Origin: an uncultured Lachnospiraceae bacterium
GTDB taxonomy: Bacteria; Bacillota; Clostridia; Lachnospirales; Lachnospiraceae
Reading direction: 5' to 3'
DNA length: 64,000 bases
Assembly: GCA_947626435.1 (NCBI GenBank)
Contig: CANQSB010000002.1
Coordinates: forward strand, 1 to 64,000
The notes beneath the pieces were generated by a model, which was given only the letters and a program-made list of their open reading frames with translations, was not told the DNA's origin and did not search any database. Below, in pieces: positions 26,423 through 63,266 of the stretch. Within the stretch, counting starts at the first letter, position 1, and every line of letters begins with the position of its first letter. A program made the position numbers and the translations under genes.

Positions 26423-26464
26423 CCTCGGGGGTAGTCGGTGTTTGGCTGGTTCCGAGGTTTTTTT
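26423..26464 (+). terminator. Intrinsic terminator after asnS
   Basis: CCTCGG / CCGAGG stem with a loop of about 23 bases, followed by seven T. Confidence 0.75.
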
Positions 26465-26499
26465 ATGTTGAGATTGGGAGGGGGAGGTGAATGAGGACG

Positions 26500-26724
26500 A
26501 GCCAGTCAGATATAATGTCTGCTGCGCCTGTAGTGGGAATGCGAAATTTTCTAATGCAATGCGTGTAGGTGTATTAATGAGGTCGTGGTCGTCGGGAGGC
26601 GACGTACGTGTCGCCGCCCGACTAAAATCGGCGTCCGTGCCGATTTTACCACTTGGTATCGAGCATTGCATAAGAAAATTACGCATTTCCACTAATGGCT
26701 TGCAGACATTATATCAGGCTGGCT
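26500..26724. repeat. 225-bp palindromic element, left copy
   Basis: A large nested inverted repeat. The outer arms are CAGATATAATGTCTGC / GCAGACATTATATC with AGCCAG / GGCTGGCT ends. The middle arms are TGGGAATGCGAAATTTTC / GAAAATTACGCATTTCCA and TAATGCAATGC / GCATTGCATA. There are two inner hairpins, GTCGGG...CCCGAC and AAAATCGGC / GCCGATTTT. It is nearly identical to 27967-28191, and flanking bases TGAATGAGGACG and CTGGTTATT are shared too. Open frames of 80-120 codons through it are by-products of the palindrome. The remaining bases of 26341-26944 hold a terminator and an AT-rich leader. Confidence 0.9.
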
Positions 26725-26944
26725 CTGGTTATTAGTAGAAATTGTTATTAGTAGAATAAATTTTTGAGCAAAAATGCATACATTTTTGCTCAAAAATTGT
26801 ATTGTGCAAAATGTCATACACTGTTCTTATTTTACGATATAAGTGGGTTAAAGTCAATAAAGTTTTTGTGCAATTTCACCATTATATACCGCAAAAACAT
26901 ATCGGCAAAAAAGTATAGGTTTTTGCCGAAGCGGAGGAATATAG

Positions 26945-27937: not shown

Positions 27938-27966
27938 TGTATTTGGAGGGTGGATGAATGAGGACG

Positions 27967-28191
27967 AGCCAGCCAGATATAATGTCTGCTGCGCCTGTAG
28001 TGGGAATGCGAAATTTTCTAATGCAATGCGCGTAGGTGTATTAATGAGGTCGTGGTCGTCGGGAGGCGACGTCCGTGTCGCCGCCCGACTAAAATCGGCG
28101 TCCGTGCCGATTTTACCACTCGGTATTGAGCATTGCATAAGAAAATTGCGCATTTCCACTAATGGCTTGCAGACATTATATCTGGCTGGCT
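27967..28191. repeat. 225-bp palindromic element, right copy
   Basis: Same length and orientation as 26500-26724, differing at roughly eight positions. Terminal arms and the two inner hairpins are conserved. Direct-repeat copies bracketing one gene resemble the ends of a compound mobile unit or a recombination cassette. Confidence 0.9.
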
Positions 28192-45876: not shown

Positions 45877-47487
45877 ATGAATAAAGTTAAAGATTTTTTT
45901 AAGAAATGTAATGTTGCACTGTTAGCGATTTTGATTATTCAGTGCATTTATATGATATATTGGGGATTCCAGAAGAGCGGGTATTATGTAGATGAATTTT
46001 TTACATATGATAATGCGCATTATATGTCTGCATCAACACCTGACAGAATTAAGCTATATGATGCGGATTTCCTTACATATGATGAATGGCATAATTTATC
46101 AGATTTAAAAAGCACGCTTACAGTTAAAAAATCAGAATCTCTGTTGACTGATTCGTTAAAGTATAATGTTAATGTGCTGATGAACAAATATCCCTATATG
46201 TGTTTATTAAATTATGTGGAGGCAATTTTTTTTGATGGTTCATTCAGCAAATGGAGTGCGATTTCTATTAATATAATATTATTTCTCATTACTCAAATTA
46301 TATTGTACAAACTAACTTTAAAAATCTCAAATGACAAAGCAGCTGCTGCTATTGCTGTGTGCTTGTATGGTTTTTCAGGAATGGCGGTAAGTATGACTGT
46401 CTATGTAAGATTTTATACGCTCGTTACCATGTTTATGACATTATACACGTATCTTCATATATGTATGTTGTATAGTTCCAGCATGGTGAAATTTATTGTA
46501 TTTGAAATATTGTCGCTCCCTGCTTTATTTTTTGCATATAGAGATTCGCCGTTGTCAGTTATTCAAGGTGTGGGAATGATAGGCTTTTTTGTATTGTTGC
46601 TTTTGATTAAAAAAAGGTATAAGCAGGCAATAATATACGGAGTACCTGTTATAGGTGGTGGCTTTTTTTACGCGGCATTTAAAACAGAATATGTCAAGTA
46701 TTTTCTGAATATTAGTGCCGCTGCCAATGCAGAAAATTCAAATGTGGCGACGGCCAGTTTACTTGAAAATTTATTAAGCTTAACACCAAGCAATTTTGTG
46801 AGCAGAACGATGGAGTTTGCGCATATTGTCTGCAGATATTTGTTTGGACATTCTATAGTCTTGATGATATATATATTGCTGGCTGTTGGGGCAATGGTAT
46901 TATTTGGCACAAAAAAGAATAAGTTAAACGGAAATGGTACAGACTGCATTTTCTTATTGTTGTTACCATGTGTATTTTATGGTATAATATCAATATGTTT
47001 GAATCTTAGCGCTATACGATATAACTCATCTATTTTTCCAGAGGTGGCAGCATGTGTGGCAGTAATTGTCGCATATGTGTTTAAGAGCAGCAAACTAAAA
47101 AAGCCGGCAATGTCAATTATCGCAGTGGCAATAGCAGGAGAGCTTGTATTTACCTGTTATATACCGCGAATAGAAAACATATATTTGGAAGATAGACATG
47201 CAATAGACAGTATGCAAAATTATCAAGGAATAGATTCGATAGTTGTTGATTACCATTATGATGATAAGGTAATGTATGAATGTCTTGCATACTGTGATAA
47301 AGATACAAGGGTTATGTTTACTGCTTATGATACAATTGACTATAATGACTGGGAAGATACGGTTTTGGTTTGGCAGAGTGTGAATCAAGAACAGAAAGTG
47401 GCAGACGAAATATTAAAATCAGGTTTTTCTTCAATTGATGAGATTGGTAGGACGCATGAGTCAATAATTTATATCGCTTCAAGATGA
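45877..47487 (+). CDS. GT-C type membrane glycosyltransferase
   Basis: A 536-residue protein with about eleven membrane helices, first gene of the polysaccharide locus. The first extracytoplasmic loop carries YYVDEFFTYDNAHYM, where Asp-Glu matches the catalytic acidic motif of PMT/GT39-like enzymes that use polyprenyl-phosphate sugars. A soluble C-terminal domain (about 440-536) faces outside. The gene is much more AT-rich than alaS, marking the locus boundary. The ribosome site is weak (GGGAAATGGG); ATG 45877 is the best of three near starts. Confidence 0.75.
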   Translation: MNKVKDFFKKCNVALLAILIIQCIYMIYWGFQKSGYYVDEFFTYDNAHYMSASTPDRIKLYDADFLTYDEWHNLSDLKSTLTVKKSESLLTDSLKYNVNVLMNKYPYMCLLNYVEAIFFDGSFSKWSAISINIILFLITQIILYKLTLKISNDKAAAAIAVCLYGFSGMAVSMTVYVRFYTLVTMFMTLYTYLHICMLYSSSMVKFIVFEILSLPALFFAYRDSPLSVIQGVGMIGFFVLLLLIKKRYKQAIIYGVPVIGGGFFYAAFKTEYVKYFLNISAAANAENSNVATASLLENLLSLTPSNFVSRTMEFAHIVCRYLFGHSIVLMIYILLAVGAMVLFGTKKNKLNGNGTDCIFLLLLPCVFYGIISICLNLSAIRYNSSIFPEVAACVAVIVAYVFKSSKLKKPAMSIIAVAIAGELVFTCYIPRIENIYLEDRHAIDSMQNYQGIDSIVVDYHYDDKVMYECLAYCDKDTRVMFTAYDTIDYNDWEDTVLVWQSVNQEQKVADEILKSGFSSIDEIGRTHESIIYIASR

Positions 47488-47545
47488 GCGATATATGTAG
47501 TATATTATTATATGGCTATTTACGAGGTTAAGAGGAGAAATAAAT

Positions 47546-48493
47546 ATGGCAAGAGTATCTGTGGTGGTGCCGGTTTTTAATGAAGAAGGAAATGTTGCAA
47601 AGCTTCACAAGGAAATAAAAGATGTGTGCGAGGCTAATAATTATGAGTATGAAATAATATTTGTAAACGATGGCTCATCAGATCGCTCAGAGGAGATATG
47701 CAGGACTCTCAGACCATTGAAATATATAAGGCTTAGGAGAAATTTCGGACAGACAGCAGCTATGGATGCTGGTATAAAAGAGGCAAAGTATGATTATATA
47801 GTCACAATGGACGGTGACAGGCAGAATGACCCCGCAGATATTCCAATGATGATAGAGTATTTAGAGGAAAATAACCTTGATGTAGTGTCAGGATGGCGTA
47901 AGCATAGGAAAGATACGGTTATGAAAAAGTTTACATCAAGGGGGGCGAATTTTTTAAGGCATATATTAATACATGATGGCATACATGACAGTGGCTGTTC
48001 ACTTAAAGTTTATAAAAAAGAATGCTTTGAGCATGTTAATCTATACGGTGAACAGCATAGATTTATTCCAGCAATTTTGAAAATAAAGGGCTTTGAAGTT
48101 GGTGAGGTAGTAGTAAATCACAGACCGCGGACATCAGGAAAAACAAAATACAACTGGAAACGCACTATAAAGGGATTTGTTGATATGATATCAGTGTGGT
48201 TCTGGAATAAATATTCGACAAGACCGCTTCATTTATTGGGCGGACTGGGATTTTTGTTTATGCTGGCAGGCGGAGGCTGTGGTATTTGGTCGATTGTTTT
48301 GTTTGCGATGGGAAGAAAAATGTCAAATAATATTTTCCCGCCGTTGTTTACCATATTTTTTATCATAATAGGATTACTGTTGTTTGTGTTCGGTCTGATG
48401 AGTGAGATACTAATAAAAACATACTATGGGGTGCATGTTGATTCGTCGTACAGTATAAAGGAAATAACGGATTACAGTGAGGAAAAAGACTGA
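47546..48493 (+). CDS. Family 2 glycosyltransferase, GtrB/DPM1-like
   Basis: A 315-residue enzyme that puts a sugar onto polyprenyl phosphate. The GT-A domain has SVVVPVFNEEGN, the metal-binding VTMDGDRQNDP (DxD) and RRNFGQTAAMDAGI. Two C-terminal membrane helices (about 228-285) anchor it. Its lipid-linked sugar is the expected donor for the GT-C enzymes of the locus. Start follows AGAGGAGA. Confidence 0.88.
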   Translation: MARVSVVVPVFNEEGNVAKLHKEIKDVCEANNYEYEIIFVNDGSSDRSEEICRTLRPLKYIRLRRNFGQTAAMDAGIKEAKYDYIVTMDGDRQNDPADIPMMIEYLEENNLDVVSGWRKHRKDTVMKKFTSRGANFLRHILIHDGIHDSGCSLKVYKKECFEHVNLYGEQHRFIPAILKIKGFEVGEVVVNHRPRTSGKTKYNWKRTIKGFVDMISVWFWNKYSTRPLHLLGGLGFLFMLAGGGCGIWSIVLFAMGRKMSNNIFPPLFTIFFIIIGLLLFVFGLMSEILIKTYYGVHVDSSYSIKEITDYSEEKD

Positions 48494-48576
48494 TAAAAAG
48501 AATATAAGTCATTGCATTTTTAGCATTATAGAAATAAGTGAATATACTATTGTATATTTGTAGGAGGAGAATTGGC

Positions 48577-49905
48577 ATGTGCATACGGGCAATAAAGTTA
48601 TCTCAAATGCAGGATGCGTTTGCATCCACACCGCTTACGACGCCGGATGAGTTAAGTAAATTTTATCAAGAAACAGCGCATGCAAGGACAGGTGATGAGT
48701 TCTCGGATTTTGTGAAAAGCCTTTCTCTTAAATTGGAAGACAGCAAGGAAGTTGTTCAGCATATTCTCTTTGTCGGCCATCCGGGATGTGGCAAGACGAC
48801 AGAGCTTTATCAGCTGCTTCAAAAAACTCAGAATATGGGATTTATATCATGCTTTGGGCGATGTGATTTGGAGTTGGATTCGGCTGATATTGAATATACG
48901 GATGTTTTATTTTTTGTTCTGGATTTATTGGTACAGGCGGCTGCTGAAAATAATATTGATATAGATGACTCACTGATAAATGAAATTCACAGCTACTGGA
49001 AGGATGAAATTGAAGTAATAAAAACCGAAAACAGGCAGGAGGAAACGGACATATCAGGAGGCAGTTCGGCAGAAGTTGGAATCTTAGGACTGATTAAAGT
49101 ATTTACAGAGATAAAAGGAATAATAAAAAACAGTTCAGAATCAAGACGGCAGATTAGAAATCGTATTGAGCCAAGAAGCAGCGAGTTGGTGAATAAAATA
49201 CAGCGGATTATAAGGGAAATATCTAATAAAGCTAACGTAATGGGTAAGAAAAAAGTCCCGTTGGTTATTTTGGATGGATTGGATAAAATACCTTTGGAGC
49301 AGGCAAGGAAGATATTTAAAGAAAATGGTGCGCGTTTTTCACTGTTGAATGTTCATCTTATAGTCACGTTTCCTATAGCGCTTACCTATACGCCTGAGTA
49401 TAGCGATATTACTACATGGTTTCCAAATCCCGAAAAGCTGCCGATGATAAAGCTGCGCAAGTGGGAGAATAACAGGTACATTGACGGATATACAGAAGGC
49501 ATAATTACAATGAAAAAAATTATTGGGAAACGGGCGGATGAAAATTTGTTTGAGGCTGGGGTTTTGGATAAGCTTATTATGCAGACTGGCGGGTATATTA
49601 GAGATTTGTTCCGATGCATATCAAAAGCAGCTAATCGAGCTAGGCTGAGAGCGTCACAGACAATTTCGCTTGATGATGCACAGGTTGCTTTGGATAACTT
49701 GGAATCTGATCTTAACGGCAGGTATGATGCGAATATGATACCTATTATGAAAGCAATATATCAAGGAGAAAAATATGTATCTACATCAGATAACATTACA
49801 AGATTATTGCAGGTAGGAGCAGTGCTTGAATACAATGGTCAGAAATGGTGTGATTTGCATCCATTAGTTGAAAAATGGCTGGTAGAGCATGGAAGATTGG
49901 CTTGA
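48577..49905 (+). CDS. AAA+ ATPase (Orc/STAND-like) with C-terminal winged helix
   Basis: A 442-residue cytoplasmic ATPase. Walker A is GHPGCGKTTEL (67-77), Walker B VILDGLDKI (about 230-238), and a sensor-like strand (LIVTFPIAL) follows. The region 340-400 forms the lid, and the last 60 residues (ITRLLQVGAVLEYNGQKWCD) look like a winged helix. Residues 140-190 form a charged insertion. It is not a known glycan-synthesis enzyme. The next gene, 15 bases on, encodes a TPR protein that looks like its partner. The start ATG follows AGGAGGAG. Possible roles are signalling control of the locus or defence (inference). Confidence 0.75.
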   Translation: MCIRAIKLSQMQDAFASTPLTTPDELSKFYQETAHARTGDEFSDFVKSLSLKLEDSKEVVQHILFVGHPGCGKTTELYQLLQKTQNMGFISCFGRCDLELDSADIEYTDVLFFVLDLLVQAAAENNIDIDDSLINEIHSYWKDEIEVIKTENRQEETDISGGSSAEVGILGLIKVFTEIKGIIKNSSESRRQIRNRIEPRSSELVNKIQRIIREISNKANVMGKKKVPLVILDGLDKIPLEQARKIFKENGARFSLLNVHLIVTFPIALTYTPEYSDITTWFPNPEKLPMIKLRKWENNRYIDGYTEGIITMKKIIGKRADENLFEAGVLDKLIMQTGGYIRDLFRCISKAANRARLRASQTISLDDAQVALDNLESDLNGRYDANMIPIMKAIYQGEKYVSTSDNITRLLQVGAVLEYNGQKWCDLHPLVEKWLVEHGRLA

Positions 49906-49920
49906 TTAGGGAGGCATGCT

Positions 49921-51333
49921 ATGGATAATTGGAAACAGTATAATGATGAGCAATATAGCATGCTTCGTTTGGCGATTACTGATACAAGTACAGGAATATG
50001 TCTTTTTCGTGCGAATAATCCGGTGTTCCAATTAGATGTTGCAAGACGGTTAAAACGGGAGCTATCAAAAAAGTGCTGTGTATTAAATCTGGCTAAGGTT
50101 AGTCCCGACCTTATGCCGGATAGCATTATGAAGCTGCATAAGCTTTTAGATGGATATGAAGATTGCAAAGTGATTGTAATGTGCAATCTGCAGCTTTGCG
50201 GTATTGAATTAGGCGAGGACGAATACATTCAAAGGTTGAATTATATGCGCGATCAGCTGCTTGCTATGAACAAGGTCTGGGTGCTTGGAATGTCAAATTA
50301 TTTTGCACTTCTGCTTAGCCGGCATGCTATAGATTTGTATTCATGCATTATGAATCACTTCGAATTTAAATCGGATGAAGAAGTACCATTTCAAGAATTG
50401 AAAATGGATGATTTTACAGGCAATATTATAATTGAACTGTATCATTTTATGATTTTGCGGAATGAAATTAAAAAAGAGGGAATAGAAAACGCTTATATTG
50501 ATGAACTGTTTGAACTGATTGGAGTTTGGAATAAAATATATGAGTATAGTACTGAAGAAATAGCATTGTTTGTTAAAAATGTATGTAAACGGGTTTATGA
50601 CATTATGGTATCTGATAATGGTATTGCGGCAAAGGAATATACCAGGTACTGCATGTTAGTGGATGCATATAGCTATTTGGGAGATTATAAAATATCGCAT
50701 GAAATTATGTCTTCGATAAAAGAAAAATACAAAAAAGACATATTAAAGTATAATGAGCAATCATATATAGTTGAATATTCGTATGGGAATATATGCATTA
50801 AAGAGGGGGAATATGCTCTTGCAGTGAAATCTTTTAATCGTTTGTTGTCATACGATATTAAGTTTCAATCATATTTTAATTATAAGATAAGTGATATGCT
50901 TGCATGGGCATATATATGTCAAGGCAATTACAATAAAGCAATTAAGATATATATTCAAATGTGTAAACTTATTAATAATGATGGCATGGCAGCAGAAAGT
51001 GACAAGGCGTTTTTATGCAATAATGAAGGCGTATGTTTTTTAGCAAAGCACGATTACTCAAAGGCCTTGCAATGTTTCTTTGAAACAGAATCGCTTATAA
51101 ATAAAAAAAATTCCATAGGAATACACATAAAAGCAGGTGTGCTGAAAAATATAGGATATACATACACAAGGCTTGGTGATTATGATAAGGGGATTGATTT
51201 TTTGATAAGAGCAAAAAGTCTGTTGGAGCAGTTAGACAATAGTGTTAATATAATAGAAAAAATGAGATTTATTGAGAATACAATAAAGGAATGCAAGGAT
51301 AATATTGATGAAAATACTGATTATATCTCATGA
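49921..51333 (+). CDS. TPR protein with degenerate NTPase-like N-terminal domain
   Basis: A 470-residue soluble protein. Residues 1-160 have an alternating strand/helix pattern (ICLFRANNPVFQLDVARRL, then KVIVMCNLQL) ending LNYMRDQLLAMNKVWVLGMS and SRHAIDLYSCIMNHFEF. This recalls the LN-x2-RD...APDLWS-x5-F-x-F layout seen next to bacterial STAND and AAA modules. No Walker A is present. Residues about 200-460 are at least five TPR-like helical repeats (YSKALQCFFETE, YDKGIDFLIRAKSLLE). GGGAGG precedes the ATG. The 3' end overlaps the next gene by 26 bases, tying the pair into the glycan operon. Confidence 0.72.
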   Translation: MDNWKQYNDEQYSMLRLAITDTSTGICLFRANNPVFQLDVARRLKRELSKKCCVLNLAKVSPDLMPDSIMKLHKLLDGYEDCKVIVMCNLQLCGIELGEDEYIQRLNYMRDQLLAMNKVWVLGMSNYFALLLSRHAIDLYSCIMNHFEFKSDEEVPFQELKMDDFTGNIIIELYHFMILRNEIKKEGIENAYIDELFELIGVWNKIYEYSTEEIALFVKNVCKRVYDIMVSDNGIAAKEYTRYCMLVDAYSYLGDYKISHEIMSSIKEKYKKDILKYNEQSYIVEYSYGNICIKEGEYALAVKSFNRLLSYDIKFQSYFNYKISDMLAWAYICQGNYNKAIKIYIQMCKLINNDGMAAESDKAFLCNNEGVCFLAKHDYSKALQCFFETESLINKKNSIGIHIKAGVLKNIGYTYTRLGDYDKGIDFLIRAKSLLEQLDNSVNIIEKMRFIENTIKECKDNIDENTDYIS

Positions 51334-52453
51334 ATATCCGCCGATAGGCGGGGGCGGGGCAAATGCCTGCTTATTTTTGGCGAGAGAATTGGCCGCTAAA
51401 GAAAATCAGGTTACAATCGTAACAGCAGCATATAGTGACCTGCCGACAGATGAAACGACAAAAGCCGGTGTAAGAATATATAGGGTCAGATGTAAGAGAA
51501 AAAATAAAGAAAAAAGCAGTTTCCCAGAAATGTTGTCGTATCTTGTAAACGCTTGGAGGAAAGCGGAAGAATTATTAAAAGATGCGCACTATGATAAATG
51601 TCTTGTATTTTTTGGAATTCCCAGTGGACCGCTTGCATTGCATTTAAAGAGAAAATATAAGCTGCCATATGTTGTAAGGTTTGGAGGAGGCGATATTCCT
51701 GGAGCGCAAAAAAGATATAAATATTTATACATGGTGCTGGCACCTGTTATAAGAAGCATATGGAAAAACGCAGATAATCTTGTCGCGAATAGTGAGGGGT
51801 TAAAACAGAGAGCGCTTGGTTTTGATGATAAGTATGATATAAGCATTATAGAAAATGGCGTTGATAGTGATTTTTTTGTGCCTAATGGTGAGAAAAGCGA
51901 CAGTGATATAATTAAAATCTTGTTTGTTTCACGATTAATAGAGGGAAAAGGACTTCAATATGTAATCCCAAGCCTATATGATATACAAAGACAAGTTAAG
52001 GCACAGACAGGGAAAAGTATAGCACTTATAATAGTCGGTGATGGACCATATAGGGAGACACTGGAAGAACTTGTGGCAAAGACAGGGACAAAGGGGCTTG
52101 TGAGTTTTGAAGGAAGAAAGGACAAGCAGGAGGTCAGAGAATATTATCAAAAAGCGGATATTTTTATACTTCCGTCACTGTCAGAAGGTATGCCGAATGT
52201 CGTTTTGGAAGCTATGGCAAGCGGATTGCCTATTGTAATGACGCCTTGCGAGGGAAGCAAGGAACTTGTCACTGACAATGGAATTATATCCTCCATAGAC
52301 AAAATCCCGGAAAGCATAGCTCAATTGTGCATAAATGAATCAATGAGAAACGATATGGGGAAAAACAGCCGAAAAAATGTGGAAGCGAGTTTCAGATGGG
52401 AAAGCATAGGGGAGAGATACCTTAAAATGCTAAATAATGAGGATGAAAAATAG
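51308..52453 (+). CDS. Family 4 glycosyltransferase
   Basis: A 381-residue cytoplasmic GT-B enzyme. The N-terminal domain starts MKILIISHEYPPIGGGGANA; the C-terminal nucleotide-sugar domain holds FVSRLIEGKGLQYVIPSL and the EX7E motif in LPSLSEGMPNVVLEAMASGLP. It adds a sugar to the growing lipid-linked glycan. ATG lies inside the end of the TPR gene, so translation is probably coupled. asnB starts two bases after the stop. Confidence 0.9.
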   Translation: MKILIISHEYPPIGGGGANACLFLARELAAKENQVTIVTAAYSDLPTDETTKAGVRIYRVRCKRKNKEKSSFPEMLSYLVNAWRKAEELLKDAHYDKCLVFFGIPSGPLALHLKRKYKLPYVVRFGGGDIPGAQKRYKYLYMVLAPVIRSIWKNADNLVANSEGLKQRALGFDDKYDISIIENGVDSDFFVPNGEKSDSDIIKILFVSRLIEGKGLQYVIPSLYDIQRQVKAQTGKSIALIIVGDGPYRETLEELVAKTGTKGLVSFEGRKDKQEVREYYQKADIFILPSLSEGMPNVVLEAMASGLPIVMTPCEGSKELVTDNGIISSIDKIPESIAQLCINESMRNDMGKNSRKNVEASFRWESIGERYLKMLNNEDEK

Positions 52454-52455
52454 AT

Positions 52456-54315
52456 ATGTGCGGTATTTGTGGATATATTGGATATAAGTCAGTTACGGAA
52501 GAACAGCTATGGGACATGAATAATACAATGTATCATAGAGGACCTAATGACGGCGGTATTTTACAGTTTCGACAAGGAGAAAAGGAGATAGGCTTGGCTC
52601 AAAGGAGGCTCTCCATCTTAGACTTGTCTGAATTAGGCCACCAGCCGATGCTCTCAGCAGACGGAAGGTATATAATAGTATATAATGGTGAAATATATAA
52701 CTTTAAAGAGCTTCGCAAAGAGCTGGAGAATAAAGGATATAAGTTTATTTCTAACTGTGATACAGAAGTTATTTTATATGCGTATGCAGAGTGGGGGAAG
52801 AATTGCTTTTCACGCTTTAATGGTATGTTTGCGATTGCCATATATGATAAGAGTGAACAGCGTTTAATTTTGGCAAGAGACAGAATTGGTAAAAAGCCAT
52901 TGTATTATTATTCCGACAAGGGACATTTTGTATTTGGCTCAGAATTAAAGCCGATTATGCAGTATCCATATTTTGAAAAAAAAGTCAACAAAGATGTTAT
53001 TGGACATTATTTGTGCAATAAATATTTGGTAGCGCCATTATGTATTTTTGAAAATACTTATAAGATGATTCCTGGGACAATCCTTGAATATGTCGATGGA
53101 GATTTTAATATAAGCAGCTATTGGAATGTGACTGAACGCTATAATGCGCTTAGGGCAGATGAACAGTACAGCTTTGAGGAAGGCAAGAAAGCGCTTAATG
53201 ATATCCTACAGGATGCAGTCGCGTCACGACTGGTCGCTGATGTGCCGGTTGGGACATTTTTAAGCGGCGGCATAGACTCGACATTGGTCACGGCGATAGC
53301 GCAAAGAAATACGGAAAAGCCTGTAAACACATATTCTATTGGCTTTTATGATAAGGAGCGGAACGAAGCGCCGTTTTCGGCGGAGATAGCAAAACATTTG
53401 GGAACAAATCATCATGAACACTATATTGATGACAATGACATATTTGAGATGATTGCCGATTTGTCTAAATATTATGATGAGCCGTTTTCGGATTCGTCGC
53501 AGCTTCCGACTATGTTGGTGTCTAAATATGCGGCTCAGGATATTACTGTGGCGCTTTCCGGAGATGGCGGAGATGAGATTTTTTGCGGTTATACGACATA
53601 TGATTTGACATGGGTTGCCCAACATGTAGACTTTATGGGAGGGATTGCTTATCATATTCCGGGCGTAAGGCAATTATGCGAGGCATTGTCGCCGGAGATG
53701 AGGGCGTTTATAAGAAATAGAAATAAAAATACAAAGACGCAGCTTTTTACAGATGTTACCATAGAAGAAGTTGATAAAATATTGGGCAGAAAGTCAAACA
53801 ATATAAAGTTTTGGCATGAAGATGGTCTTAATATGCCGAATTGGCAGGAGAGAAGGATGCTGCTGGACATGCAGACATATCTTCCCGATGAAATATTAGC
53901 CAAAACTGATAGGGCGTCAATGAAATATTCTCTGGAAGTTCGATGTCCTATATTGGATTATAGGATTATAGAGGCGTCATTTAGAGTGCCGCATAAATAT
54001 AAATATAACAAATTTGATAAGAAACATATTCTTAAGGAAATAACATATGATTATGTGCCTAAAGAGCTCTTAGACAGACCTAAAAAAGGTTTTGGTGTGC
54101 CGCTTCGCAAATGGCTTAGGACAGTATTAAAAGATGAAATACTGCATTATGCCGATAAGGATATTTTAAGCAGACAGGATATTTTTGTCCCGGAGGCAGT
54201 CCACAGGCTTATAGAGACGCAGCAGCATTCGGACAAGATTATTTACAGCTCTATATTATGGTCGTTTTATGTGTTTCAGAAATGGTATCAGGTGTATATA
54301 GAGGATTTGTGGTGA
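52456..54315 (+). CDS. asnB: Asparagine synthase (glutamine-hydrolysing) family
   Basis: A 619-residue two-domain enzyme. The N-terminal glutaminase starts with Cys2 (MCGICGYIGY). The C-terminal synthetase has the ATP loop FLSGGIDSTLVTAIA and ALSGDGGDEIFCGYTTY. In capsule loci such proteins usually amidate a uronic acid or another carboxylate on the glycan rather than make free asparagine. The ATP-dependent mechanism is the same; the acceptor is unknown. It lies tightly between two GT4 genes. Confidence 0.9.
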   Translation: MCGICGYIGYKSVTEEQLWDMNNTMYHRGPNDGGILQFRQGEKEIGLAQRRLSILDLSELGHQPMLSADGRYIIVYNGEIYNFKELRKELENKGYKFISNCDTEVILYAYAEWGKNCFSRFNGMFAIAIYDKSEQRLILARDRIGKKPLYYYSDKGHFVFGSELKPIMQYPYFEKKVNKDVIGHYLCNKYLVAPLCIFENTYKMIPGTILEYVDGDFNISSYWNVTERYNALRADEQYSFEEGKKALNDILQDAVASRLVADVPVGTFLSGGIDSTLVTAIAQRNTEKPVNTYSIGFYDKERNEAPFSAEIAKHLGTNHHEHYIDDNDIFEMIADLSKYYDEPFSDSSQLPTMLVSKYAAQDITVALSGDGGDEIFCGYTTYDLTWVAQHVDFMGGIAYHIPGVRQLCEALSPEMRAFIRNRNKNTKTQLFTDVTIEEVDKILGRKSNNIKFWHEDGLNMPNWQERRMLLDMQTYLPDEILAKTDRASMKYSLEVRCPILDYRIIEASFRVPHKYKYNKFDKKHILKEITYDYVPKELLDRPKKGFGVPLRKWLRTVLKDEILHYADKDILSRQDIFVPEAVHRLIETQQHSDKIIYSSILWSFYVFQKWYQVYIEDLW

Positions 54316-55511
54316 TGAGGATACTTTTTTTTATTTCGACATTGGAAAACGATGGTGCGGAAAGGGCTATGTCTAACATTACGACGCATTTGCCGGATAA
54401 TGTTGAGGCGGATATACTTTTAAATTCTGTTTCAGACCATGATTTTCCGACTGATGCCAATGTGATTAGCTTAGGAATGCCTGCTGATAAAAAGAAAGGT
54501 ACACTATATCAAATAGTGGCTTTATTTAAGCGCATACCAAAGTTATATAGACTTAAAAAAAATAATAATTATGACGCGTGCATAAGTTTTATGGATAGCG
54601 CCAATATGTGTAACATTTTGACCGGAAATAAATATTGCAGGACGATAATTTCCGTGCGTGTAAGTGTGGCGCAGGATAGGACGTTTATATATAAATATGT
54701 TGTCAGAAACATGATAAAGCTATTGTATAATAAGGCTGATTATATCGTTGCTGTGGCAGAGGGCATACGAAGAGAGCTTATAAACAATTTTGATCTATGT
54801 TCAGAAAAAGTGAAGACAATCACTAACGGATATGATGTGGCAGATATAAGGAAGAAATCAAATATGCCTATGCCTGATAAGCTATTGACAGACATGGAAG
54901 GTAAGTTTATTTATGTTACTGTGGGCAGATTTTCAGATCAAAAAGCGCAGTGGCATTTGATACGAGCGTTTTCGAGGGTTGCGTCTGAATGTAACAATGC
55001 ATGTTTGTTGGTTGTCGGGCAAGGTGATGATAAAGAATATCTTGAAAATATAATAAAGGTCAATTCGCTGCAGGATAAGGTATATTTAATACCATACCAA
55101 AAAAATCCGTTTGCTGTTTTAAAACAATGTGATGTATTCGTTATGCCGTCTATGTTTGAAGGATATTGTAATGCATTATGTGAGGCATTGATATGTGGGC
55201 TTCCGTGCATTGCCACAGACTTTCAGTCAAGTGCAAGGGAGATTTTGGCACCGGATACAGATTATAGCTATAGAATCAAAACGGGGGTAGAGAAAGCAGC
55301 CTATGGTATATTGACACCGGTATGCTCAGGAACGCGATATAAAGGAAATGAACCATTAGAGAAGAATGAGGAATATTTGGCAGAGGCTATGATGTGTTTG
55401 AATAATGATAGGGAATTATTTGATAAATATAGAAAAGCTTCTGCAATAAGGGCAGATGAGCTGGATATAGATACTAAAGTGAATGAATGGATTGAACTTG
55501 CGGATAAATAA
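54315..55511 (+). CDS. Family 4 glycosyltransferase
   Basis: A 398-residue GT-B enzyme: MRILFFISTLENDGAERAMS at the N-terminus, TVGRFSDQKAQWHLIRAF and the EX7E motif in MPSMFEGYCNALCEALICGLP. ATG 54315 shares one base with the asnB stop (TGATG), so translation is coupled. An in-frame open stretch upstream lies within asnB and is not used. Confidence 0.9.
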   Translation: MRILFFISTLENDGAERAMSNITTHLPDNVEADILLNSVSDHDFPTDANVISLGMPADKKKGTLYQIVALFKRIPKLYRLKKNNNYDACISFMDSANMCNILTGNKYCRTIISVRVSVAQDRTFIYKYVVRNMIKLLYNKADYIVAVAEGIRRELINNFDLCSEKVKTITNGYDVADIRKKSNMPMPDKLLTDMEGKFIYVTVGRFSDQKAQWHLIRAFSRVASECNNACLLVVGQGDDKEYLENIIKVNSLQDKVYLIPYQKNPFAVLKQCDVFVMPSMFEGYCNALCEALICGLPCIATDFQSSAREILAPDTDYSYRIKTGVEKAAYGILTPVCSGTRYKGNEPLEKNEEYLAEAMMCLNNDRELFDKYRKASAIRADELDIDTKVNEWIELADK

Positions 55512-55540
55512 TGAGATAAGGGAGTGTTATTAACATTATA

Positions 55541-57320
55541 ATGAATCGGTTTGACAGTATTGGTAATCTATTAAAAAGGATGGATAATAACAATAATATT
55601 GTACATTTTGCAATTGTGTTCTATTGGATTGCGTTTATATCGTATACTAATATGTGTTATATGGTATATTTAGTGGTTGGTATATTCAGTTTATTTTGTA
55701 TGTGTTACAAATCAAACAAAGTAGTAGAAAACAATGGTATAAATAAAATTATATTGGATTTCTCGTCGATCGTTTTTTCCATTATAGTTTTGTTAGGAAA
55801 TTATGAATTGTTTATTGATTTGCATGTATCAATGAACAAAAATATAATTAACAATACATATAAAATTTCAGTTGCGTTAATATTGTTAATTGGAGGTTTC
55901 TTTGTATTCCATAATATATTGTCGTTTTTTACGAACAGGCTCTGGAATTTTTATTGGCATAAACATGAATATGCAACAAGTCCAATGGTAATTTTTATGA
56001 TTTCAGTTGTACTAATTTCGACAATATATATATCAACGATGCTAATAGGATATTATCCCGGAATAGTTGGACCTGACGCTTTGAATCAAATCGGTCAAAC
56101 ATTATCAGGAGAATATACAAACCACCATCCATTTTTTCATACGATGGTAATAAAACTATTTCAAGTAATAAGCTTAGAATTTTCCAACGATATCAATGTT
56201 TCTGTGGCATTGTATAATATATTTCAGGGAATTTTTATGGCATGTTGTTTTTCATATATTATAGTAACCTTATATCAGATGAAGCTTCATTGGGGGATAA
56301 TTATAGGAGTATGGCTGTATTACGCAATTTTTCCAATGCATATATTTTACAGTTGGACGATATGGAAAGATGTTATGTTTGGAGGATTTGTTGCGGTTAT
56401 GGTTACGGCGCTGTGGAGAATATTCAAAGGCGTAGATTCAAATAACAGGCTTAATTATATCATCTTTGGAATAGGGGGGGGGGGGTACATGCCTGTTTCG
56501 CAGCAATGGATATTTTGCTTTTTTATTTTTTACATGCTGTTTTGCAATAATATTCAGAAAAAAATATCGCAAAGTATTTGCAATATTTATAGCAGTTTTG
56601 GTTTTTGCGTTTATATTAAAGCATCCGGTGATGGAGCTTTTGAGTGTAAAACAACCAGACACAATAGAACATTTAGCTGTCCCCACTCAACAGATTGCGC
56701 GTGTTATAACTGATTGTGATTGTTTGTCTGAAACGCAGGTATCGTTGTTGAGTAATATAATTGACATATCAAAAATTAAAAATGCTTATAACCCGCGATT
56801 GGTTGATCCTATAAAGGAACTGGTTAGAGATAAGGCAAATCAGGATTACCTGAAAGAGCATAAATATGAATTTCTGAAGCTGTATATAGAGCTTGGGATG
56901 GCTAAACCACATAAATATGTTCAGGCGTGGGTTGATTTGACGAGAGGATATTGGGCTGGTGGAGCTTCATATTGGTCAAGTGGGGTAGTTAATGAAAACA
57001 ATTTTGGAGTTAAGGAAAGCATATACTCTAAAAATTTTCAGAAATTGTTGTGTTGGTATGCGGAAATTTTTAATACTGATTGTCTTAGAATTTTTTTGAG
57101 CATAGGTTTTTGGGTATGGATAGTGCTTGCAATTGGAATTATAGGCGCCGTCAGAGGCGACAAAGAAATGGTCTGCATGGTAATTCCTATTGTTGCAATA
57201 ATAATATCGTTATTAATAGCAACGCCGATAGATGCTGATTTACGGTATTGTTATTCTGTCTTTTGCTGCACGCCGTTTTTGGGTTGTTCATTATTTTATG
57301 GTTATAGAGGTGTATTATAG
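55541..57320 (+). pseudogene. Multi-spanning membrane protein, frameshifted at a 12-G tract (phase-variable OFF)
   Basis: Two overlapping frames make one gene. Residues 1-315 contain about eight membrane helices (ISTMLIGYYPGIVGPDALNQ, TNHHPFFHTMVIKL) and run into 12 G at 56474-56485. As written, the frame then reads unrelated sequence and stops at 56713. In the +1 frame the natural continuation appears at once: TCLFRSNGYFAFLFF, then FAFILKHPVMELLSV and a hydrophobic C-terminus to 57320. With 11 G the gene would be intact at about 592 aa. The layout (PGIVGPDALNQ...FRSNGYFAF) resembles DUF6020/GT-C-like proteins of capsule loci. No good ribosome site lies near the ATG. A sequencing error in the homopolymer is the alternative. 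Confidence 0.8.
56474..56485 (+). repeat. Poly-G tract, 12 G, out of frame
   Basis: A 12-base homopolymer inside a coding region. Its length breaks the frame by one base. Such tracts change length by slipped-strand mispairing. Confidence 0.9.
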
Positions 57321-57383
57321 TGAAAGTCTGCAAATAAATATGATTTATAAATATATATTATATATTATATTTCGGAGAGTGTA

Positions 57384-58913
57384 ATGACTGAATCAAGAGT
57401 GAAAAATACAACAAGAAATATTGTAAGCGGTATAGTCAGCCAAGTGATAAATATAATTGTTCCGTTTATTATAAGCACACTTATTTTGTATGTTTTGGGT
57501 GTGAATTATCAGGGATTTGACGGATTGATGTTTTCTTTGCTGAAAGCACTCAATTTGGCTGAGTTGGGTTTTTCGTATGCGGCAGTATATATTTTATATA
57601 AGCCTGTAGCTGAGGGCGATTACCAAATGATATGTGCAATTATGGCATACTATAAAAAAATATATAGGCTGATAGGACTGGCAATTCTTGTGTTAGGTTT
57701 GCTGTTAATTCCGATTTTACCAAGGCTTATAAAGGATGACTGTCCGAATGATATTAATATATATATTCCCTATTTGATTTATTTGTCTAATTCTGTAATT
57801 TCATATTGGGTGTTTGCATATAAAAGCGCACTGTTAACTGCCATGCAGAGGGCAGATGTGATAAATAATATCACAACAGTCATAAGATTATTTATGCAGG
57901 CTATCCAAATAATAATTTTGCTTTATTTTAAAAATTATTATGCGTATTTAATAATTTTGCCGATATTTACATTTTTTAACAATATTTTGGTGGAATATTC
58001 ATCAAGAAAATTATTTCCGCAAGTTGTGCCATATGGTATAATGCCAGATGATGCAAAGGCAGGGCTGATAAAACAGATAAAGGGAATTTTTATAGGAAAA
58101 ATTAGTGATGTTTCAAGAAATGGAGCAGACAGTATATTTTTATCGGCGCTGATAGGACTTACTGCGGTTGCTGTGTATAATAATTATTATGCATTATGCG
58201 CAGGTATATGTAATATCTCTTTTGCTATTGCTAATGCTTTGGGCGCGAGTGTTGGAAACAGTATGATAAAGGAAACTGTGTACAAGAACTACAACGATAT
58301 GTGTAAATTTACATTTATTTACTCGGTATTTTCGGGTTGGTGTACAGTATGTTTATGCTGTCTTTATCAACCATTTGTTTTTATATGGATGAGGGGCAAT
58401 ACCGAATTATTGCTTTCAAATCACAATATGTTTTTATTTTGCGTCTATTTTTACGCTATAACAATGAACAACATAAGGAATCAATATCTAAATGGATGTG
58501 GTATATATTGGGAACTGCGTATATGGTATATTTTAGAGGCATTGGGAAATGTTGTTTTGAATCTTTTATTGGGACATTTATTTGGAATTACAGGAATATT
58601 GATTGCCACGCTGTTCACTATAATTGTATTTAATTTTGTTGCAAGGACTAATGTTATGTTTAAAGCATATTTTAAGCGAAGTCCTAGAGAGTACTATATA
58701 CAGCACATAAAATATATACTGGCAACTTTGGTCAATGTTGTGTTGACATATTGGGTATGTTCATTGATTCGGTTAGATGGAATACTTGGATTGGGAGTAA
58801 AGCTTATAATATGTATGTTACTTCCGGAAATAATATATGTATGTATATACCATAAAACAAAAATATATAATGAATCGTTAAGCTGGGTGATGAGCATATT
58901 GAAACATAGTTAA
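57384..58913 (+). CDS. Wzx-like oligosaccharide flippase
   Basis: A 509-residue polytopic protein with about 12-14 membrane helices, of the polysaccharide-exporter branch of the MOP superfamily. It begins NTTRNIVSGIVSQVINIIVP, typical of the PST family, and has the GAD SIFLSALIGL-type central segment. It should flip the lipid-linked repeat unit to the outer face. Start ATG follows CGGAGAG. Confidence 0.88.
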   Translation: MTESRVKNTTRNIVSGIVSQVINIIVPFIISTLILYVLGVNYQGFDGLMFSLLKALNLAELGFSYAAVYILYKPVAEGDYQMICAIMAYYKKIYRLIGLAILVLGLLLIPILPRLIKDDCPNDINIYIPYLIYLSNSVISYWVFAYKSALLTAMQRADVINNITTVIRLFMQAIQIIILLYFKNYYAYLIILPIFTFFNNILVEYSSRKLFPQVVPYGIMPDDAKAGLIKQIKGIFIGKISDVSRNGADSIFLSALIGLTAVAVYNNYYALCAGICNISFAIANALGASVGNSMIKETVYKNYNDMCKFTFIYSVFSGWCTVCLCCLYQPFVFIWMRGNTELLLSNHNMFLFCVYFYAITMNNIRNQYLNGCGIYWELRIWYILEALGNVVLNLLLGHLFGITGILIATLFTIIVFNFVARTNVMFKAYFKRSPREYYIQHIKYILATLVNVVLTYWVCSLIRLDGILGLGVKLIICMLLPEIIYVCIYHKTKIYNESLSWVMSILKHS

Positions 58914-58966
58914 TAGAATGGTGTGTCGCTGCTGGTACAGTTCTAATAAGGTGGGAGTATAAAGAC

Positions 58967-61171
58967 ATGTTTATATTGATTTGCGTAGTCATAACTATAA
59001 TAGAAGTTATGATTTTAAAAGTTTTAAACAAAACTTTTGAGAGGAAAGTTTATATAGGTATATTTTTTTGCAATTTAATAATGTCGATTGCAGTATATGT
59101 CTATGCCATAGGCTATTCATTAAATGTTTTTAAGGCAATTACATATCGCATAACACCCAATCTGGTATATTTCAGTTGTATTGTGTTTGTATCAGCAGTA
59201 TGTTCAGCAATCACATGTTATTTTTACAAGCCATGTAGTCGAAACAAAATAAAAATATTTGCAGAAAATGATAAGAAAGACAAGCTTGTATTGACAATGG
59301 CTATTGTAGTTGCTGCCGTACTCAGAATTACAGGCTTTTGGTGGGGCAACGGAGTGACATTTCATCCGGATGAGGGAAATGTTGTCCGTAGTCCCATAAG
59401 TATGTCTGAAAATAATACATTGATGTCTGAAAATACATTTTATCCCGCTCAAACATCGGCTAAAATAATGTCAATCATATTTAAAATATATCGTATAATA
59501 TGTTCAGCAATCAATGTTGAGTATTCAACTGTGAATTTTTATTATCTTGGCAGGATTTATATAGCGATTTTAAGCACGGCAATAGTAATATGCGTATTTT
59601 TTATAGGAAACCGGCTAAAAAAACATGCAGGAACGCTCGCCTGTGTTTTAACCGCGTTGTTTCCGCCATTTGTACATATGGCGCATTGCATAACAGGTGA
59701 TACGGTTATTGCGTTTTTCGGGTGTTTGGCAATGTTGTTGTCACTCTGTTATCTCAATAATAATACATCATACAGATGGTTGGTTGGTATGTCAGTGACA
59801 GCGGCTGCAGCTGCAATGGAAAAATGGAACGGTGCGGTCATTTGTGGATTGATAGCAGTGGTAGTTATTGTAAAGAATTGTGATAGAAAGAAAATCTACT
59901 TTGACAAGATAATAAAGCAAGGAATATTTTCGATTATCTGCGTGTTGGTTTCAATAGTTATAATAGCTCCCAATCTGGTGTCAAGATTGCCTGAAGTTAT
60001 AGAAAATATATTGTATATACAAAATGGTTATGAAGGCAGTAACTCATTTTTGGATAATTTCTATCAATATATGATGGAGTTTGTGTCGTATGCAGGCATT
60101 ATATGTTTGCCATTGTTGATTGTAGGTATTTATTGTGTATTAAAATTGGTATACCAGGGGGGGGGTAAAGATATCTGCTGCCTTAGCGTAGGTCTGTTTT
60201 CATTGATTGGGATGTGCATTCAAAATAGGGCGCTTACACGCTGGGGGTATATGTTTTATGTATGCTTTATTATATTGATTGGTATAGGTATGATGTACAT
60301 TATAGAAAGTCATTTGCAGCATAAGCGTATAGTGAGGATGGGCATTGGTTTTATAACGGTGTTGGTTTTGCTGAATATGCTGGCAGGTTCGTTTTGGCTT
60401 GATGTTATATACACCCATTCGGATAAGGATACGCGAATTGTTTCGGAGAAATGGTGTTTGGACAATAATATTAGAGTAGAGGAATGTATATATGACAATT
60501 ACACATGTTGGGAACCGGGAGGAGTAACGAGGCATCCGGTTGAGTGGGATAAAACAGGGGTTTCACGAAACATTTTAGATAATGAAAATGACATTGTGAT
60601 AAAATGTATAGGTAAAAAATATGCTGTGGATAATCCGGATCGGTTCCCGGACAGTAATGGTATTACAAAAAATCTTCCAATTGTGGCTGTATTTGAGAGT
60701 GCATACAATGAAGACGGGTTTATCTTTGAATTTTACCACAGCTATTCTAATAAAATTTACACATTAAAAAGTATATACGATTCTATAAGTAAAAGTATAG
60801 ATGTATTAAAAAATAATGTATATATAGGTGATACCATAAACATATATGATATTAGCGGTTTTCCGTCATCTGAAATATTTGAGATTGACCGGTTCGAAAA
60901 GACTGATTTAGAGGATGGAATGACCCAATATAGCGAGAATATATCAAGTATTACTCAAGGAAAGTATACAATAGAATTTACAGATGCGAAGTTTTCTGAT
61001 GGCAAGGTGTATTTTGAAGACGCTTCGGGTAATATGCTTACATCAGTATCATTGACGGATAAATCAAGTTATACAGTCGAATTTGAAAAGCAATATTACA
61101 ATGTTATATGTCGAATAGCTGCAGATGAAGCTGATTGCTTTTCAAGCGTGACGATTAAGTCGCAACTTTGA
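58967..61171 (+). CDS. GT-C (PMT/GT39-like) glycosyltransferase with in-frame poly-G
   Basis: A 734-residue membrane enzyme. After two or three helices the catalytic loop reads GVTFHPDEGNVV, with the Asp-Glu motif of GT39/ArnT-like enzymes. About ten helices follow, then a soluble extracytoplasmic domain (about 500-734). It is predicted to transfer a sugar from polyprenyl phosphate to an external acceptor. A run of nine G lies at codons 397-400 (KLVYQGGGKD), between membrane segments; in its present length the frame is open. The start follows GGTGGGAG. Confidence 0.85.
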   Translation: MFILICVVITIIEVMILKVLNKTFERKVYIGIFFCNLIMSIAVYVYAIGYSLNVFKAITYRITPNLVYFSCIVFVSAVCSAITCYFYKPCSRNKIKIFAENDKKDKLVLTMAIVVAAVLRITGFWWGNGVTFHPDEGNVVRSPISMSENNTLMSENTFYPAQTSAKIMSIIFKIYRIICSAINVEYSTVNFYYLGRIYIAILSTAIVICVFFIGNRLKKHAGTLACVLTALFPPFVHMAHCITGDTVIAFFGCLAMLLSLCYLNNNTSYRWLVGMSVTAAAAAMEKWNGAVICGLIAVVVIVKNCDRKKIYFDKIIKQGIFSIICVLVSIVIIAPNLVSRLPEVIENILYIQNGYEGSNSFLDNFYQYMMEFVSYAGIICLPLLIVGIYCVLKLVYQGGGKDICCLSVGLFSLIGMCIQNRALTRWGYMFYVCFIILIGIGMMYIIESHLQHKRIVRMGIGFITVLVLLNMLAGSFWLDVIYTHSDKDTRIVSEKWCLDNNIRVEECIYDNYTCWEPGGVTRHPVEWDKTGVSRNILDNENDIVIKCIGKKYAVDNPDRFPDSNGITKNLPIVAVFESAYNEDGFIFEFYHSYSNKIYTLKSIYDSISKSIDVLKNNVYIGDTINIYDISGFPSSEIFEIDRFEKTDLEDGMTQYSENISSITQGKYTIEFTDAKFSDGKVYFEDASGNMLTSVSLTDKSSYTVEFEKQYYNVICRIAADEADCFSSVTIKSQL
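60157..60165 (+). repeat. Poly-G tract, 9 G, in frame
   Basis: Nine G within the GT-C gene. A gain or loss of one base would cut the protein after about 400 residues. Confidence 0.9.
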
Positions 61172-61254
61172 CGGCTAAAAAGTATGATTTTTAAGATAGT
61201 AAATTTTTAAACCGCAGAAAAAAGTGTCCGTTGAAGCGGATTAGAGGTATAAAA

Positions 61255-62157
61255 ATGAAAAGAATATTTGTAACACTAGACACAGAGATGGACAATGACG
61301 AGCATTGGGGAAAGCATTATCCGCCAGAGTATTCGTCTGTGATTGAAGGCATTCCCCAAATGCTTCGCCCGATTTGGGATAAATATAATGTGCATCCGAT
61401 ATATTTTGTTTCACCGGAAGTACTATATGACGAGCGCTGTATTGATGTCTTAAAGAGTGAGGTGAAAAAGGGCGCAGTGATTGGGGCGCATCTGCACCCT
61501 GAATATATAGAGCCTGACAGGATTTGGGGAAAAGAAATTGAGAGCGAAACCGCAAAATTTCCCTGTTATTATTATTCTGAAGAGATAGAGAAGGAAAAGC
61601 TGATAAATTTAACGGAAATGATAAGCGAAAAATTGGGAGTAACTCCGATTTGGTATAGGGCGGCGCGTTTTGGGGCAGATATAAACACGATTCAGATTTT
61701 AAAAGAATTAGGCTATCAATATGACAGTTCAGTTACGCCGCATATCGACTGGAGCACAAAGGGAGGTCCCAATCACAGTAATGCGCCGGTTACCGGATAT
61801 AAGATATCAAGGAAATGCCTGCAGGAGGAAGCCGGTTCGGAAGCGGACTTTAGCGGGGTCATAGAAAAACCGGTTACGATTTATGGAAAACGCTGGGGAG
61901 TTATTGGACATTTCCTGCCGGATAACTGGCTGTTTTACCGTTGGCTGAGACCGACACACATGACATATTGTGAGTTGAAGCATGTCATCCGCCATATGTA
62001 CAAAGCAGATGTAGAGGAAGGCGTGATGATGTTCCATAGTATGGAAATAATGATTAATAAGACGCCATATGTCAGGTCAAGGTGGATGCAGAAATATTTT
62101 TTGTGGAGATTAGACAGGATATTGAAATATGCCGCGGATATGGGTTATGATTTGTAA
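61255..62157 (+). CDS. Polysaccharide deacetylase-like (NodB-fold) protein
   Basis: A 300-residue cytoplasmic protein. Motif 1 is changed to VTLDTEMDNDEHWG, motif 2 appears as GAHLHPEYIE with the His-x-His pair, motif 3 as YRAARFGAD, and the late catalytic His as MMFHSMEI. This fits a divergent carbohydrate esterase 4 member with metal ligands largely kept, perhaps acting on glycan intermediates. ATG 61255 is used because AGAGGT precedes it. Base composition rises again here toward that of the housekeeping genes. Confidence 0.78.
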   Translation: MKRIFVTLDTEMDNDEHWGKHYPPEYSSVIEGIPQMLRPIWDKYNVHPIYFVSPEVLYDERCIDVLKSEVKKGAVIGAHLHPEYIEPDRIWGKEIESETAKFPCYYYSEEIEKEKLINLTEMISEKLGVTPIWYRAARFGADINTIQILKELGYQYDSSVTPHIDWSTKGGPNHSNAPVTGYKISRKCLQEEAGSEADFSGVIEKPVTIYGKRWGVIGHFLPDNWLFYRWLRPTHMTYCELKHVIRHMYKADVEEGVMMFHSMEIMINKTPYVRSRWMQKYFLWRLDRILKYAADMGYDL

Positions 62158-62189: not shown

Positions 62190-63266
62190 ATGAAAAAATA
62201 CAACTTCACCCTCATCATCCCATCCTTAAATCCTGACGAAAAGCTTTCGCATACAGTAAGACTTGCCGTTGAGGCGGGAATTGGCGATATCATTCTTGTA
62301 GATGATGGAAGTGATGCCGGACATAAGCATTATTTTGATGAGCTTGTAAAAAAATATCCGCAGGTAACGCTTTTGTCCCACGAAAAAAATCTTGGCAAAG
62401 GCGCTGCACTCAAGACGGCATTTGAGTATTTCATAAAAAACAGACATGGCAGCGACGGCGTGGTGACTGCCGATTCAGACGGACAGCATAGAATGGAGGA
62501 CATTATAAAATGCGCCGAAGAAATGATGAATGGCGAGCAAGCCATAATAATATTAGGCTGCCGCGATTTTTCGCTTGAAAATATTCCCGCAAGGAGCCGT
62601 TTTGGCAATAAGGCAACATCACTCGTGTTTCGTCTGTTCTTTGGCATGAGCATTTCAGATACTCAGACAGGGCTGCGTGCCATACCTTTCAAATATGTAA
62701 AGGAGATGCTTGAAGTCAAAGGCACGCGATACGAATACGAGACAAATATGCTTATATATATGAGCCGGAAAAAACTTCCGTATCGTGAAATAAAAATTGA
62801 AACATTGTATTTTGATGATAACAGTGCGTCGCATTTTCGTCCGATACGTGATTCAATGCGCGTATATGGAATTATCATAAAATACGCGGCTAATTCCATT
62901 GCTTCAGCGATTGTTGACATTTTGGCGTTTTATTTGCTGGGGCAGTTTGTTTTTGTGGGCGGAGGCAAAATTGCCGTTTTGTTGTCCACCGCGGCGGCGA
63001 GAGTTATTTCGTCAGTCGCAAATTTTGCCTTAAACAGAAAATATGTATTTGACAGCCATTCAAATGTGTTGAAAACATTTTTTAAATATGTGTGTCTTGC
63101 AGTCCCGATAATGCTTATATCGTGGATTAGCGTATACGGACTGTCAAAGGCAATGGATTTTGGCCAGCTTGGACGCACATTGTGGAAAGCTGTAGTGGAT
63201 ACGATGCTTTTTGTCGTGAGCTTCCGCGTGCAGCGCAGATGGGTGTTTGCCGAAAAGAGCAAATAA
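62190..63266 (+). CDS. Family 2 glycosyltransferase fused to a GtrA-like membrane domain
   Basis: A 358-residue fusion. Residues 1-225 form a DPM1-type GT-A domain: FTLIIPSLNPDEKLS, ILVDDGSDAG, GKGAALKTAF and the DxD in TADSDGQHRM. Residues about 232-355 have four membrane helices with the GtrA pattern (ARVISSVANFALNRKYVF, FRVQRRWVFAEK). GtrA domains are thought to flip the polyprenyl-phosphate sugar made by the GT domain, so the fusion makes and presents the donor for the GT-C enzymes. Start follows AGGAG. Confidence 0.9.
   Translation: MKKYNFTLIIPSLNPDEKLSHTVRLAVEAGIGDIILVDDGSDAGHKHYFDELVKKYPQVTLLSHEKNLGKGAALKTAFEYFIKNRHGSDGVVTADSDGQHRMEDIIKCAEEMMNGEQAIIILGCRDFSLENIPARSRFGNKATSLVFRLFFGMSISDTQTGLRAIPFKYVKEMLEVKGTRYEYETNMLIYMSRKKLPYREIKIETLYFDDNSASHFRPIRDSMRVYGIIIKYAANSIASAIVDILAFYLLGQFVFVGGGKIAVLLSTAAARVISSVANFALNRKYVFDSHSNVLKTFFKYVCLAVPIMLISWISVYGLSKAMDFGQLGRTLWKAVVDTMLFVVSFRVQRRWVFAEKSK

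Follow-up and report, generated by a model that had tools for sequence, protein, structure and literature searches.

A 12-G tract divides a probably phase-variable DUF6020 gene within a candidate poly-G phasome of a probable Lachnospiraceae genus

Random on/off switches built on poly-G tracts are best known from pathogens, for example Campylobacter and Neisseria. Campylobacter is not known to possess a MutS/MutL repair system. In the Campylobacter phasome, the lengths of poly-G tracts were reported to peak at 9 (53%) and 10 (26%) (PMC6321876). Tracts of 11, 10, and 9 G in the promoter of porA of Neisseria meningitidis were reported to give graded expression (PMC3639595), and slippage was demonstrated by deep sequencing in pilus genes of Bifidobacterium breve (PMC9187656). 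Among the matches listed from open-licence PubMed Central, as judged from titles and abstract openings, none describes phase variation by poly-G tracts in a member of the Lachnospiraceae or of any other clostridial group, a scope that does not prove absence; in the parts consulted of the article in which the terms best co-occur (PMC6437147), Lachnospiraceae are mentioned for their abundance only. The poly-G system described here is of a known kind, in a probable Lachnospiraceae lineage for which no such report was found.

The stretch of DNA analysed, hereafter the window, spans 64,000 nucleotides (positions 1-64000 of contig C2) of a 3.70 Mb draft genome in 98 contigs (G000). The genus is probably a member of the Lachnospiraceae, and a gut life is probable from the titles of relatives and from a choloylglycine (bile-salt) hydrolase gene (L236:1279-2277, on contig C56 of G000) that fits it. 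The locus under study consists of the following features.

55541 to 56713, + strand: upstream ORF of 390 aa (from ORF reading), which before the tract encodes the 5' part of a membrane protein of DUF6020 type and after it an off-frame tail.
56474 to 56485, + strand: 12-G tract (from the sequence), the proposed slippage site.
56487 to 57320, + strand: post-tract frame of 277 codons and a stop (from a DUF6020 match), the 3' part of the same protein.

The ORF from 55541 crosses the 12 consecutive G at 56474-56485 and stops at 56713, whereas the frame ending at 57320 begins right at the tract, in a different phase, with 281 open codons. Within the 831 bases 3' of the tract, the used frame contains no stop, and the other two contain 27 and 24; none of 20,000 base shuffles was stop-free. 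In Pfam, the 3' piece (56487-57317) matches DUF6020 (PF19484) with 81.4 bits, against a cut-off of 28.3, over model positions 324-587 of 604. The 5' piece (55541-56473) matches positions 182-277 weakly, with 22.2 bits, so that membership in DUF6020 is given by the 3' piece, which exceeds the gathering cut-off, while the 5' piece by itself falls below it. Both structural claims of a first-pass annotation, namely that the frame from 55541 is broken at 12 G and that the rest of the protein lies in the frame ending at 57320, are therefore borne out. As the two parts of the family meet at the tract, a change in its length is so placed as to switch between a complete and a truncated protein. A promoter-spacer switch of the porA type was ruled out for this gene, because its tract is intragenic. 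The gene is probably a translational contingency (phase-variable) locus, OFF in the assembly, and part of a large poly-G phasome.

Homologues show what the unbroken gene looks like. The 5' piece has matches in 65 of 299 family genomes, the present one included, and 33 homologue loci were examined: 29 taken from among the matches in other family genomes, and four from a scan of named genomes, which are distant relatives (29-36% identity). At all 33 loci, the 5' and 3' pieces match a single ORF, in order, and at 32 of them this ORF has at least 544 codons. At the six loci whose two alignments, taken together, reach to within three residues of the tract (L064, L069, L082, L083, L085, and L114), the two matches lie 2 to 8 residues apart. 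It is thus not so that homologues all end where the window ORF stops at 56713, the outcome named beforehand as one that would speak against a switch; the exception, in part, is L064, whose ORF of 395 codons is cut by a later stop. That interruption lies at a different place, with no tract seen there, and shows that decay does occur in the DUF6020 family. The window gene might likewise be a plain pseudogene, broken once at a mutation-prone run and now decaying, the more so since homopolymers are frameshift hotspots in any genome. We regard this as quite improbable: the 277 post-tract codons are stop-free, the 81-bit DUF6020 match is kept, no second break was found in either piece, and long G-tracts recur in other surface-type genes and in DUF6020 genes of sister species.

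Two such sister genes occur in one genome of the genus (G034). One, a DUF6020 gene of 629 aa (L139), carries an in-frame 9-G tract; the other, a DUF6020-like gene with 25% identity to the window 3' piece (L166), carries an out-of-frame 9-G tract. As far as BLAST offsets show, the positions of these tracts within the protein differ from that in the window gene, and no orthologue of the latter with the same tract was found among the homologue loci examined. A poly-G tract seems, then, to have arisen more than once within the DUF6020 family. These differing positions also bear on recoding, by which RNA polymerase or the ribosome would slip on the G-run and yield some full-length protein, with or without slippage of the DNA. 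For the poly-A tracts of Buchnera, slippage during transcription of long homopolymers has been mentioned (PMC2831843), and recoding is compatible with DNA slippage. The scattered tract positions give no hint of a conserved recoding signal, however, and tracts in promoter spacers, described below, cannot act in this manner; recoding therefore appears very doubtful as the explanation. A structural model of an intact homologue (L111), built with L112-L114 and both window pieces as separate rows, reached a mean pLDDT of 50.9, too poor for comparison with the GT-C fold.

The 12-G tract is not an isolated run. The window contains 118 G-runs of length 4, 22 of length 5, and 3 of length 6; lengths 7 and 8 are missing, and the two longest runs have 9 and 12 G. 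In 400 kb sampled elsewhere in the genome, there are 906, 181, 23, and 1 G/C-runs of lengths 4, 5, 6, and 7 and none longer, a zero that is partly by choice, as these stretches were picked after the tracts were known and are not random. Over the whole genome, there are 13 runs of exactly 7 G and 33 of at least 8 G (three of 8, 16 of 9, seven of 10, three of 11, two of 12, and one each of 14 and 15). The distribution is thus bimodal, with a second peak at 9-10 that is beyond chance, and A/T-runs in the 400 kb sample (152, 27, 1, and 2 for lengths 7 to 10) have no such second peak. A chance run as the source of the 12-G tract was dropped, since the genome-wide counts of G-run lengths speak against it.

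By our own sorting, 21 of the 33 tracts are intragenic and in frame, five are intragenic and out of frame, three lie between promoter hexamers, one precedes a start codon, one lies in a 116-aa ORF without a family (C67:6081), one is at a contig end (C17:66348-66362, 15 G), and one, of 8 G, is outside these classes (C27:5034). For three in-frame tracts (C13:38905, C17:62151, and C17:35031), "in frame" says little, as only 14 to 33 codons follow. The out-of-frame class comprises C1:161120, C2:56474 (the window gene), C5:91355, C17:41292, and C34:510; at C1:161120 the tract is very near the start, and a later start is possible. The 9-G run before a start codon (C17:40039; L102:10040-10048) lies 11 to 19 bases 5' of the ATG of a 376-aa ORF, in the position of a ribosome-binding site, and might switch translation initiation.

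A rival explanation is that the tract is uniformly in frame in the organism and that misreading of a long homopolymer produced the break. The exact number of G at 56474-56485 is uncertain and may result from an error in assembly. Long G-tracts are difficult to sequence: repetitive G was reported at the end of Illumina reads that pass through such a tract, and one tract with an annotated length of G11 was reported to be mostly G12 in cells (both PMC9187656). One contig of the present genome ends on 15 G, and some contigs of sister species start within a few bases of a G-run. On the other hand, 26 intragenic tracts are flanked by sequence on either side, and 21 of these, with lengths of up to 11 G, read in frame, so not every long tract is broken by the assembly. 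The class of long tracts is, moreover, independent of the exact length of the 12-G tract. An artefact at this locus is accordingly rather unlikely, though less so than decay or recoding. The 15-G contig end was set aside as evidence of switching, as it may reflect either heterogeneity or an artefact.

The genes that carry long tracts are of a particular kind. Counting the 26 genes with an intragenic tract and the one at the contig end, there are 27 tract genes, and on our reading 23 of them belong to families usual in surface-glycan assembly or modification: four Acyl_transf_3 proteins, five methyltransferases, and one each of GT2, GT4, PMT_2, MBOAT, YfhO, DUF6044, DUF6492, DUF6020, sulfatase type, epimerase, formyltransferase, ATP-grasp, UbiA, and hexapeptide, with the DUFs, UbiA, and methyltransferases so counted from context. 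The other four are three genes without a family (C1:158192, C17:36304, and C40:1771) and a FAD-dependent protein (C11:30922, 8 G). As a control, all 13 runs of 7 G were inspected: six fall within a long ORF in the sense orientation, four lie opposite one, and three do neither. The ten ORFs concerned are Epimerase_2, carbamoyl-phosphate synthase, SH3_3, a protein that we read as RadA-like, an aminotransferase, HemN, an ABC transporter, a BlaR1-type peptidase, a choloylglycine hydrolase, and one without a family. Most are thus of housekeeping or other types, as against 23 of 27 for the long tracts, although the Epimerase_2 ORF lies inside a glycan cluster on C1 and is not a clean control.

Three loci of the genome have poly-G between the -35 and -10 hexamers, the layout of porA: C7:39060, C29:34075, and C45:4347, with spacers of 16, 20, and 19 among them. 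Perfect TTGACA and TATAAT hexamers with at least 8 G between them occur at 14 places (L211-L224) in six of 38 genus genomes, the three above included; the spacers range from 16 to 21 and measure 19 at seven of the 14 places. The reversed hexamer pattern around G-runs was absent from all 38 genus genomes. The gene after the tract encodes an LRR_5 protein at C7 and C29 and a 403-aa protein without a family at C45; the C29 tract could also be classed as intragenic, since the open LRR_5 frame extends across it. In G034 and G035, several poly-G promoters precede proteins that read as LysM-like from their first residues. Overall, such promoters precede secreted LRR and LysM-like proteins, in addition to an unnamed protein of about 400 aa kept in four species. 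Tract length across species varies in one of two promoters compared: an orthologous promoter in G004 and G029 has 9 G and 10 G, respectively, with similar sequence after it, and that at C45 has 10 G in the present genome, G033, G034, and G035 alike.

Long G-runs recur throughout the genus. Runs of at least 9 G occur in 32 of 38 genus genomes, with 50 in G033, 29 in the present genome (by the pattern of that count), 29 in G034, 23 each in G035 and G016, and 0 to 17 in the rest. At the level of the family, 115 of 298 genomes contain runs of at least 10 G, usually a single run or very few; the highest counts are 28 (G097), 20 (G319), and 14 (G016), followed by 13 in the present genome. The 23 runs in G016 mostly follow a C, and some are close to the end of a contig; assembly artefacts may be among them, so counts from single drafts need care. 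Contigs that start near long G-runs were seen in G033 (C63 and C120), G023 (C180), G024 (C74), G026 (C42), and G029 (C76). Contigs ending on or near such runs may reflect either length heterogeneity or an Illumina poly-G artefact. In G033-G035, 55 distinct tracts were viewed out of 102 counted, and 33 of them are flanked on either side by at least 40 open codons; of these 33 tracts, 21 are in frame and 12 out of frame. Ten of the 21 in-frame tracts were scanned and gave four methyltransferases, DUF6020, DUF1919, DUF1796, two genes without a family, and one Acyl_transf_3 match below its cut-off.

A DUF6044 match is present in 25 of 38 genus genomes, and none of the 12 close orthologues examined has the tract that the DUF6044 gene carries in the present genome. 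Where the present genome has Gly-Gly-Gly, these have Ala-Ala-Gly, Met-Ala-Gly, and similar residues of equal length, from which it follows that the tract replaced codons, rather than being inserted, and is not shared. Thus, tracts come and go, and a given tract may be young. The methyltransferase gene at C17:41292 has an orthologue in one close species only, with weak matches in two other genomes. In G035 this gene is in frame, whereas here it is out of frame; each copy has 9 G, with slightly different flanks, so tract length alone does not explain the difference in frame. One MutS match over the cut-off was found in each of the present genome, G033, G034, and G035. With MutS present, the rate of slippage should be lowered and need not equal that of bacteria without it.

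Around the DUF6020 gene, the window holds the following features.

47546 to 54315, + strand: upstream genes of an AT-rich island, GT2 (47546), AAA-like (48538, weak), TPR (49921), GT4 (51305), and asparagine synthase type (52456).
54258 to 55511, + strand: glycosyltransferase group 1 (GT4 type, from a family match), 30 bases upstream of the DUF6020 gene.
57384 to 58913, + strand: 509-aa ORF without a family match, earlier called a flippase.
58967 to 61171, + strand: gene of the second tract, encoding a membrane protein of 734 aa that weakly matches the glycosyltransferase family PMT_2 (27.7 bits, cut-off 26.1).
60157 to 60165, + strand: second tract of the window (from the sequence), 9 G, in frame.
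62190 to 63266, + strand: GT2 with a GtrA-type membrane domain, downstream.

The first-pass annotation had placed the gene between glycosyltransferases and a flippase. A glycosyltransferase just upstream is confirmed; the flippase is not, as the ORF at 57384-58913 has no Pfam match at E up to 1 and no NCBIfam match at E up to 0.1. NCBIfam likewise had no match for the 5' piece and for four of the tract or promoter genes without a name; its matches elsewhere were only weak. DUF6020 is a family without a known function. Judged by the setting of its gene here, an AT-rich stretch that also holds GT2 and GT4 genes, the protein most likely has a part in the assembly or modification of a surface glycan. 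The stretch from 46001 to 62000, which holds glycosyltransferase genes, has a GC content of 0.33-0.40, and most of the rest of the window lies at 0.42-0.50 (0.37 for 26001-28000). It may be of foreign origin. Positions 53500-58900 had no match in a phage collection.

The earlier proposal that the gene is a likely phase-variable one in its OFF state gains support from the unbroken homologues, the genome-wide class of long G-runs, and the pattern in sister species. During replication, the tract would gain or lose single Gs through slipped-strand mispairing, and each change would reversibly shift the downstream 277 codons into or out of frame, with a complete protein in one of three phases and one cut short in two. 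In this way, a clone would divide into cells that make the complete DUF6020 membrane protein and cells that lack it; the protein would build or modify a surface glycan. About 30 such loci, most of them putative reading-frame switches, three acting on promoter spacing, and one possibly at a ribosome-binding site, would together create a combinatorial surface repertoire, of possible benefit in escape from phages or immunity or in a change of niche.

We favour, with moderate confidence, a wider reading, in which a probably gut-dwelling genus runs a poly-G phasome of Campylobacter size with MutS intact and with tracts that arise anew, in one species after another, within shared protein families, as a lineage-wide strategy by which a commensal diversifies its surface. 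Its switches would form three layers: the reading frame would be switched in genes for glycan-, acyl-, and methyltransferases, promoter spacers ahead of secreted LRR and LysM-like proteins would give graded switching, and a ribosome-binding site may form the third. If true, this would run contrary to the impression that multi-locus phase-variable genomes are a trait of pathogens. Single assemblies of such bacteria would miscall surface genes as pseudogenes, and one gut strain may mix many surface types that face phages and antibodies.

Among known systems, that of Campylobacter is alike in having many poly-G tracts per genome, mostly intragenic and in surface-modifying genes, and in having tract-free homologues that show how loci arise (PMC6321876). 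The length peaks are also alike, at 9 and 10 in Campylobacter and with 16 and 7 of 33 tracts at 9 and 10 here. The present bacterium differs in being Gram-positive, probably of the Lachnospiraceae, and in possessing MutS; variation between isolates was shown for Campylobacter (PMC6321876). The porA promoter of Neisseria meningitidis shares the position of poly-G between the -35 and -10 hexamers with three loci of this genome. However, the DUF6020 tract of the window is intragenic, and the three promoters have both hexamers in perfect consensus. In the gut commensal Bifidobacterium breve, an intragenic G-tract (annotated as 10 or 11) splits a surface gene into two ORFs, but one or two loci per genome, in pilus genes, are described there (PMC9187656), as against about 30 loci in glycan-type genes here. 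Finally, the invertible promoters of Clostridioides difficile provide ON/OFF variation in a relative within the Clostridia, although by site-specific DNA inversion and not by repeat slippage (reviewed in PMC11868660).
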